Below are positions 5,508-23,786 of a stretch of DNA of 64,000 nt, one piece after another. Both the position numbers and the translations under genes were made by a program. The notes under the pieces are model-generated. The model had not been told where the DNA came from and made no database searches. It worked only from the letters and a program-made list of their open reading frames with translations. Origin of the DNA: an uncultured Pelagibacteraceae bacterium (lineage in GTDB: Bacteria > Pseudomonadota > Alphaproteobacteria > Pelagibacterales > Pelagibacteraceae); assembly GCA_902523095.1 (NCBI GenBank), contig CABYYE010000003.1:1-64000 (forward strand), read 5' to 3'. Each line of letters begins with the position of its first letter. The first letter of the stretch is position 1.

Positions 5508-7697
<2,190 letters not shown>

Positions 7698-7716
7698 TTA
7701 TTGGTTTATTATCTAC

Positions 7717-7745
7717 TTTATAATTATTCTAAACTATAAAGTCAA
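7717..7745 (-). promoter_or_regulatory. Predicted katG promoter with overlapping Irr/PerR-like operator
   Basis: Minus strand TTGACT (7740-7745), 17-nt spacer, TATAAA (7717-7722); inverted repeat TTTATAA-TTA-TTCTAAA at 7717-7733 (plus strand) covers the -10 and part of the spacer. Confidence 0.6.
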
Positions 7746-8177: not shown

Positions 8178-8247
8178 TTATTGATATATTTAACAATTAT
8201 TTATATAAAATTGTATATAAATCAAGTAAAAACTACTAACTTAACCT

Positions 8248-8751
8248 ATGCAAAAAAATAGCTTTAATTACGAAGAGTTAATTGCTTGTGGAAAGGGAGA
8301 TTTATTTGGTGAAGGGAATGCAAAACTACCGTTGCCTCCTATGTTAATGTTTGACAGGATAACCGAAATAAAAAAAGATATTGGTGAATTTAAAAAAGGT
8401 TTTATTAAAGCAGAGTTAGATATTAAAGATAATTTATGGTTTTTTGATTGTCATTTTAGAAATGATCCAGTTATGCCAGGTTGTTTAGGTTTAGATGCTA
8501 TGTGGCAATTAGTTGGCTTTTTTTTAGGATGGGTAGGAGAACCTGGAAAAGGAAGAGCTTTAGGTGTTAATACAGTCAAGTTTACTGGAGAAGTTCTTAA
8601 AAATGTCAAGTTAGCCACTTATGAAATAAATATGAAAAGAATTTTAAAAAAAGAGGGTGCAGTAGTAGGGTTAGCTAATGGTATATTAAATGCGGATGGA
8701 AAGAAAATTTATAGCGCAGAGAATTTGAAAGTCGGTTTATTTAAATCATGA
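8248..8751 (+). CDS. fabA: 3-hydroxydecanoyl-ACP dehydratase/isomerase
   Basis: [45 protein letters not shown]. Confidence 0.96.
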
Positions 8752-23366: not shown

Positions 23367-23786
23367 TTATTTCTTAATTTTTGAACCGTAAAGTTCTAAT
23401 TTATGATCAACTAATTTATACCCTAGTTTATTGGCAATTTTTTCTTGGAGCGCTTCAATATCTTTATCTACAAATTCTACTATTTCTCCACTATTTATAT
23501 CGATAAGATGGTTATGGTCGTCATTTATTTCATATCTAGCTTTCCCAGCTTTAAAATCATGTTTTATTAAAATTCCTGCTTCTTCGAAAAGTTTTACAGT
23601 TCTGTAAACTGTAGCAATACTAATTTTATCATCAATTGTTGAAACACGTTTATGTAATTCATCTACGTCTGGATGATCTTTAGATCCATAAATTTCTTTC
23701 GATTCAGAAAGAACCTTTGCAATAACTTTTCTTTGATCGGTGAGTCTAACACCTTTCTCTTTACATTTTTCTTCAATAGTACTCAT
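23367..23786 (-). CDS. fur: Fur/Mur-type ferric uptake regulator
   Basis: GVRLTDQRKVIAKVL, ISIATVYRTVKLFEEAGI, DDHNHLIDINSGEIVEF. Confidence 0.88.
   Translation of the reverse strand: MSTIEEKCKEKGVRLTDQRKVIAKVLSESKEIYGSKDHPDVDELHKRVSTIDDKISIATVYRTVKLFEEAGILIKHDFKAGKARYEINDDHNHLIDINSGEIVEFVDKDIEALQEKIANKLGYKLVDHKLELYGSKIKK

Follow-up and report, generated by a model that had tools for sequence, protein, structure and literature searches.

The promoter of katG in the window, by which we mean the whole 64,000-nucleotide stretch of Pelagibacteraceae DNA analyzed here, contains an inverted repeat that is probably the operator of the adjacent Irr protein, which would repress katG by promoter occlusion. 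Direct support comes from conservation of the operator across SAR11 bacteria, its position in the promoter, its co-occurrence with Irr, and the exchange of the controlled gene among relatives; Irr binding, repression, and the signal are what we infer. The role of this one local regulator thus appears to have persisted through several exchanges of the enzyme under its control.

A predicted Irr operator overlaps the katG promoter

In the window, irr lies directly upstream of katG on the same strand (Table 1), and katG (ATG at 7685) is read from a minus-strand TTGACT-N17-TATAAA promoter. As claimed in a sequence-only reading of this DNA, a 7-3-7 inverted repeat with one mismatch, TTTAGAATAATTATAAA on the minus strand at 7733–7717, lies over this promoter, covering the −10 element and 11 bp of the spacer. 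The repeat extends to a 21-bp 10-1-10 inverted repeat (7735–7715) with two mismatches and a one-base center, and the box would be better described as a putative 7-1-7 Fur-family operator, TTAGAAT-A-ATTATAA.

Table 1. Features of the irr-katG locus and their positions in the window
Feature	Position	Strand	Remarks
fabA	8248–8751	+	divergent from irr; followed by fabB, fabI; conserved locus anchor
irr, Irr-type Fur-family regulator, 140 aa	7755–8177	−	NCBIfam IrrA 149.7 bits; Pfam FUR 65 bits
−35 element TTGACT, katG promoter	7740–7745	−	17-bp spacer to −10
Predicted operator, Irr/ICE-type, AGTTTAGAAT-A-ATTATAAAGT	7715–7735	−	unique at 21 bp in genome; conserved across SAR11
Operator core TTTAGAA-N3-TTATAAA	7717–7733	−	inside 21-bp form
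−10 element TATAAA within operator	7717–7722	−	17 bp from TTGACT
katG, catalase-peroxidase, 725 aa	5508–7685	−	TIGR00198 1013 bits (cutoff 770)
DUF2061-like membrane protein, 84 aa	5243–5497		23.0 bits (cutoff 23.1)

Within the 886-kb genome to which the window belongs, the 17-bp Irr consensus occurs at five sites with at most one mismatch; apart from the katG site, all four lie within reading frames or at their ends. When up to three mismatches are allowed, the 21-bp form has a single site, at katG, and a reversed control pattern of that form gave no matches in the same genome. At two to three mismatches, the motif is enriched in neither the window nor the genome, so that a single copy of the box is by itself modest evidence and it is conservation that makes the case; for the same reason, a broad Irr regulon is unsupported.

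The box is conserved across SAR11

Absence of the repeat upstream of katG orthologues had been named beforehand as what would refute the proposal, and the box was found there. Among 127 distinct irr loci of the order with a gene X in the slot after irr (71 with katG type A, 7 with type B, 17 with type C, and 32 with rubrerythrin, rbr), TTTAGAAN3TTCTAAA precedes X at 126 with at most two mismatches, at all 127 with at most three, and at 114 with at most one. Shuffled spacers, which served as the control, gave two or fewer mismatches in 0.6% of cases and one or fewer in 0.05%. For 45 divergent promoters, chosen to have a difference of 35% or more in their flanks, the consensus is TTAGAAY-n-ATTMTAA, and information content is ∼1.6 bits at box positions versus 0.41 in the flanks. 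The window matches the ICE box with one mismatch, and a perfect TTTAGAATGATTCTAAA is present in many rbr promoters of a second family of the order (f2). The box covers the −10 and spacer, except in f2, where it can immediately precede the −35. In one katG type A subclade (L009–L024), a conserved TTGACAGTTTGTCGCTTG stands ahead of the box and there is no TTGACT at normal spacing.

Could conservation of the box reflect a strong promoter or mere inheritance of the spacer rather than an operator? The −10 element does lie inside it and the locus is syntenic throughout, but conservation runs through the spacer, where sigma-70 makes few base contacts, while the flanks are unconserved. Moreover, the motif is also found in reverse ahead of the −35, in front of irr, and, in f2, at a distance from the −10, and katG promoters of genomes that have no Irr lack it. 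We consider this explanation extremely improbable.

The sequence-only reading had likened the box to both Irr and PerR boxes. Irr, and not PerR, held up as the cognate family, and the resemblance of one half-site to PerR boxes is accounted for by its second role as the −10 element. At base 13, boxes located 3′ of the −35 have A, giving TATAAA or TATATA, in 103 of 103 cases (including the few without a recognizable −35), and boxes located 5′ of it have C, the canonical Irr letter, in 40 of 40, counts that come from related sequences and are not independent events. Since the base depends on the side of the −35, the PerR-like half is the promoter's own −10.

The 40 boxes immediately 5′ of the −35 also bear on whether Irr activates instead of, or besides, repressing, in which case the f2 box before the −35 and the upstream paired box would be activator sites. 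Irr can activate in a position-dependent manner (PMC7762939), and rbr is upregulated under iron limitation in P. ubique (PMC2864753). However, the sole box of the window and of all katG type A and type B promoters covers the −10 and spacer, a position from which a bound protein should obstruct polymerase, and we regard activation as unlikely.

A second box precedes irr itself, with at most one mismatch, at 25 of 71 katG type A loci, 3 of 7 type B, 10 of 16 type C, 14 of 15 rbr, and 0 of 17 f2 loci. The irr promoter of the window has no such autoregulatory box, the best candidate having four mismatches. Two other sequences were observed in the irr-fabA spacer (8178–8247): TACTTGATTTA, retained in most f1 relatives examined and perhaps containing an irr −35 (TTGATT), and, in the clade of the window, the near-palindromic TTTATATACAATTTTATATAAA, which lies where other clades carry the Irr autobox.

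The box accompanies Irr and the circuit looks local

Twelve genomes contain katG without detectable Irr (completeness 57% for G003, 74% for G005, 87% for G024, and 95–100% for the others), and in 11 of the 12 the box is missing, the best matches to a permissive consensus having two to four mismatches. In G005, irr has been lost from between fabA and katG, and a degraded box remains, with one mismatch. G050, which carries irr and katG on separate contigs (1 and 14, respectively), has a box with one mismatch at katG; as this is a many-contig draft genome, its katG contig could be foreign. The katG tree offers four independent contrasts between presence and absence of Irr, with the box following Irr in three and showing no difference in one, and with only four contrasts this test is unable to reach significance. 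Nine Irr-bearing genomes gave nine exact matches, eight of them ahead of X or of irr itself within the irr locus and the ninth inside a gene; nine Irr-less genomes yielded one exact match, away from katG.

Most of the 12 Irr-less katG genomes retain Fur, yet lack the box at katG, which argues against the idea that Fur (encoded at 23367–23786 in the window) binds the box rather than Irr. Binding by Fur would fit the 7-1-7 architecture, which is common to Fur-family boxes, and M. gryphiswaldense Fur binds its own katG promoter (PMC3251581). A Fur-like palindrome, TTGATAATARTTATCAA, also adjoins the ICE in f2. Nevertheless, the box matches the Irr ICE, and does so perfectly in f2, making Fur a very improbable cognate. 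As to the palindrome itself, in f2 loci L120–L149 it closely follows the irr stop codon, with 6 bp separating it from the downstream ICE of the rbr promoter, and suggests possible dual control.

Spread of the box to other iron or heme genes, which the sequence-only reading had proposed to look for, was not seen in motif scans of the genome of the window and of nine Irr-bearing genomes. Judged by these scans, the circuit looks local, consisting of irr and its neighbor.

The slot after irr holds katG or rubrerythrin

Across SAR11, as in the window, fabA adjoins irr, and the gene order fabI-fabB-fabA/irr-X is constant in those loci of the genus that have irr, usually with the DUF2061 gene next. 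The same slot is found across the family and in f2. X is katG of type A (∼90%–95% identity to that of the window), B (∼69%), or C (∼53%), or a rubrerythrin-RFO-DUF3501 operon. The DUF2061-like gene begins 10 bp after katG in the window and also follows katG in most relatives; it is possibly an operon partner of katG or a mere neighbor.

We sampled 158 genomes of the order, all at least 85% complete except that of the window, at 75%. Of these, 53 contain rbr, 96 contain katG, and none contains both; independence would predict 32 genomes with both, although these genomes are related to one another. The distribution of rbr and katG over the Irr tree requires at least six changes, three of which are forced by well-supported branches. 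Among the best 30 Irr loci of a class-wide sample, rubrerythrin is nearby in 26 and directly after irr in 25, and an ICE-like sequence with at most two mismatches lies between irr and rubrerythrin in ∼16, with perfect ICEs in L259 and L261. Since irr-rbr adjacency is common across Alphaproteobacteria, the Irr switch would be old and katG a later replacement for rbr under its control. The parsimonious reading is that a putative ancestral irr-ICE-rbr module had its rbr swapped for katG in SAR11 lineages.

A few loci depart from this pattern. Searches of G021, a 94% complete genome of the same genus, found no irr, katG, or rbr, as would fit a genome in which regulator and target were lost together. 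At L123 and L125 (genomes G196 and G208), irr is followed by a perfect ICE and then by a reading frame of ∼65 aa that is neither rbr nor katG. At L193, a frameshift or sequencing error divides the katG downstream of irr into reading frames of 348 and 393 aa; its box is intact.

The regulator is an Irr-type protein with PerR-like metal ligands

Profile searches bear out the earlier identification of the upstream neighbor as an Irr-type Fur protein, with IrrA by far the best-scoring family. The IrrA score of L092 is 146.3 bits. That of the window protein is 0.3 bits below the NCBIfam equivalog cutoff of 150, a shortfall that counts against the operator reading, as does the failure of R. sphaeroides Irr to bind its katE promoter (PMC3413700). 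Relatives of irr with up to 93% identity occur in Pelagibacteraceae single-cell genomes, and SAR11 PRT-SC02 has one with 78%, which places the window in SAR11.

Site residues H41, D90, H96, H98, and D109 of the window protein match H37, D85, H91, H93, and D104 of PerR, and all five metal ligands are invariant in 127 of 127 SAR11 and 30 class Irr proteins. B. japonicum (Bradyrhizobium) Irr shares all five, so these ligands are not diagnostic of PerR; its oxidation occurs at the His that matches PerR H37 (PMC4700492). Membership of the window regulator in the PerR family was considered and rejected: the CxxC structural zinc pair is missing, the protein containing no Cys and having D and T at the columns of B. 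subtilis PerR C96 and C99, and PerR models score at most 65.6 bits (PerRB) against cutoffs of 180–250. The two flanking His residues of the HHH/HxH cluster, HHH in the window, are likewise invariant in the 127 SAR11 and 30 class proteins.

What signal does Irr sense?

KatG requires heme, which counts in favor of a classical heme-Irr circuit, in which apo-Irr would repress katG at low heme and heme binding at HxH would release it, such that KatG is made only when heme is available. The conserved His cluster is in line with this, and R. leguminosarum Irr leaves DNA upon heme binding at HxH (review PMC7762939). However, rubrerythrin, the alternative occupant of the slot, is without heme, the window Irr has no Cys and hence no Cys-type heme regulatory motif, and no box was found at heme or iron genes in our scans. 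In addition, iron limitation of P. ubique raises rbr (SAR11_0399) mRNA 1.57-fold and SAR11_0401 protein 2.21-fold, and irr does not respond to iron (PMC2864753). SAR11_0401 would be DUF3501 if the rbr-RFO-DUF3501 order of relatives holds. Repression by heme-free Irr would predict the opposite of this rise, which agrees with a metal-bound repressor or with activation; the effects are small.

Taken together, local repression of katG by Irr, as first proposed, gains from the conserved box and its co-occurrence with Irr, whereas a plain heme signal is at odds with the P. ubique rbr data. We judge heme binding by Irr to be a possible but less likely signal, and favor the PerR-like site as the sensor, through metal-catalyzed oxidation or demetallation, a reading to which we assign an even chance. 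It is possible, if still somewhat speculative, that in SAR11 Irr does the work of a PerR, as a metal-loaded repressor that senses peroxide and whose local regulon consists of itself and an adjacent, exchangeable scavenger, either di-iron rubrerythrin or heme-containing KatG.

Proposed mechanism and implications

In the mechanism that we propose, an Irr dimer on 7715–7735 would cover the −10 and half of the katG promoter spacer, blocking RNA polymerase, and inactivation of Irr would allow katG to be transcribed. The same Irr-operator pair would control the rubrerythrin-RFO-DUF3501 operon in relatives, with katG genes of three types having presumably taken its place on several occasions under a retained regulator and operator. 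In several clades, that of the window excluded, an additional box in front of irr would confer autoregulation.

No other bacteria are as abundant in the surface ocean as SAR11, which dominate the heterotrophs there, and their peroxide defense bears on the help given to catalase-poor neighbors such as Prochlorococcus. Our analysis gives the location of katG, its probable control, and its status as an alternative to rubrerythrin in one regulated slot, which makes its regulation testable in cultured strains and with synthetic promoters. It also provides a clear case in which an operator outlives exchange of the gene it controls.

Comparison with known systems

Our search of open-access papers found no report of direct control of katG by Irr; a 2006 reconstruction of alphaproteobacterial regulons may predict an irr-rbr/irr-katG site. 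According to a recent survey, most of the offshore genera of Pelagibacteraceae carry katG (PMC12636525), and rubrerythrin has been described in a few SAR11 genomes (PMC11366302); the available parts of these two papers make no link to a regulator.

The SAR11 circuit shares its regulator family with the Irr/ICE systems of Bradyrhizobium, Rhizobium, and Rhodobacter; the fabBA-irr-rbr neighborhood occurs in many Alphaproteobacteria, and the same TTTAGAA-N3-TTCTAAA box is present in f2. Control of peroxide and iron detoxification genes by Irr is already known from Rhodobacter, and the SAR11 circuit shares this link, exemplified in R. sphaeroides by the rubrerythrin-like mbfA and the peroxidase ccpA (PMC3413700). 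Unlike these systems, the SAR11 circuit looks local and is predicted to control a catalase-peroxidase directly, whereas R. sphaeroides Irr leaves katE unbound (PMC3413700); further, the window protein lacks a Cys heme motif and one half-site of its box is the −10.

With the PerR regulons (Bacillus katA/ahp/mrgA; Leptospira PerRA/PerRB), the circuit has in common the H-D-H-H-D site, the proximity to peroxide scavengers, and one PerR-like half of the 7-1-7 box. It differs in that the window protein scores far higher as Irr and the two Cys that would align with C96 and C99 are missing.

Finally, the slot of rbr-bearing SAR11 holds the same gene set as the aerobic-type rubrerythrin-RFO-DUF3501 operon, for which the available part of the source paper mentions no regulator (PMC5114695). 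The difference is that katG took the place of that operon in the lineage of the window, under the same operator.
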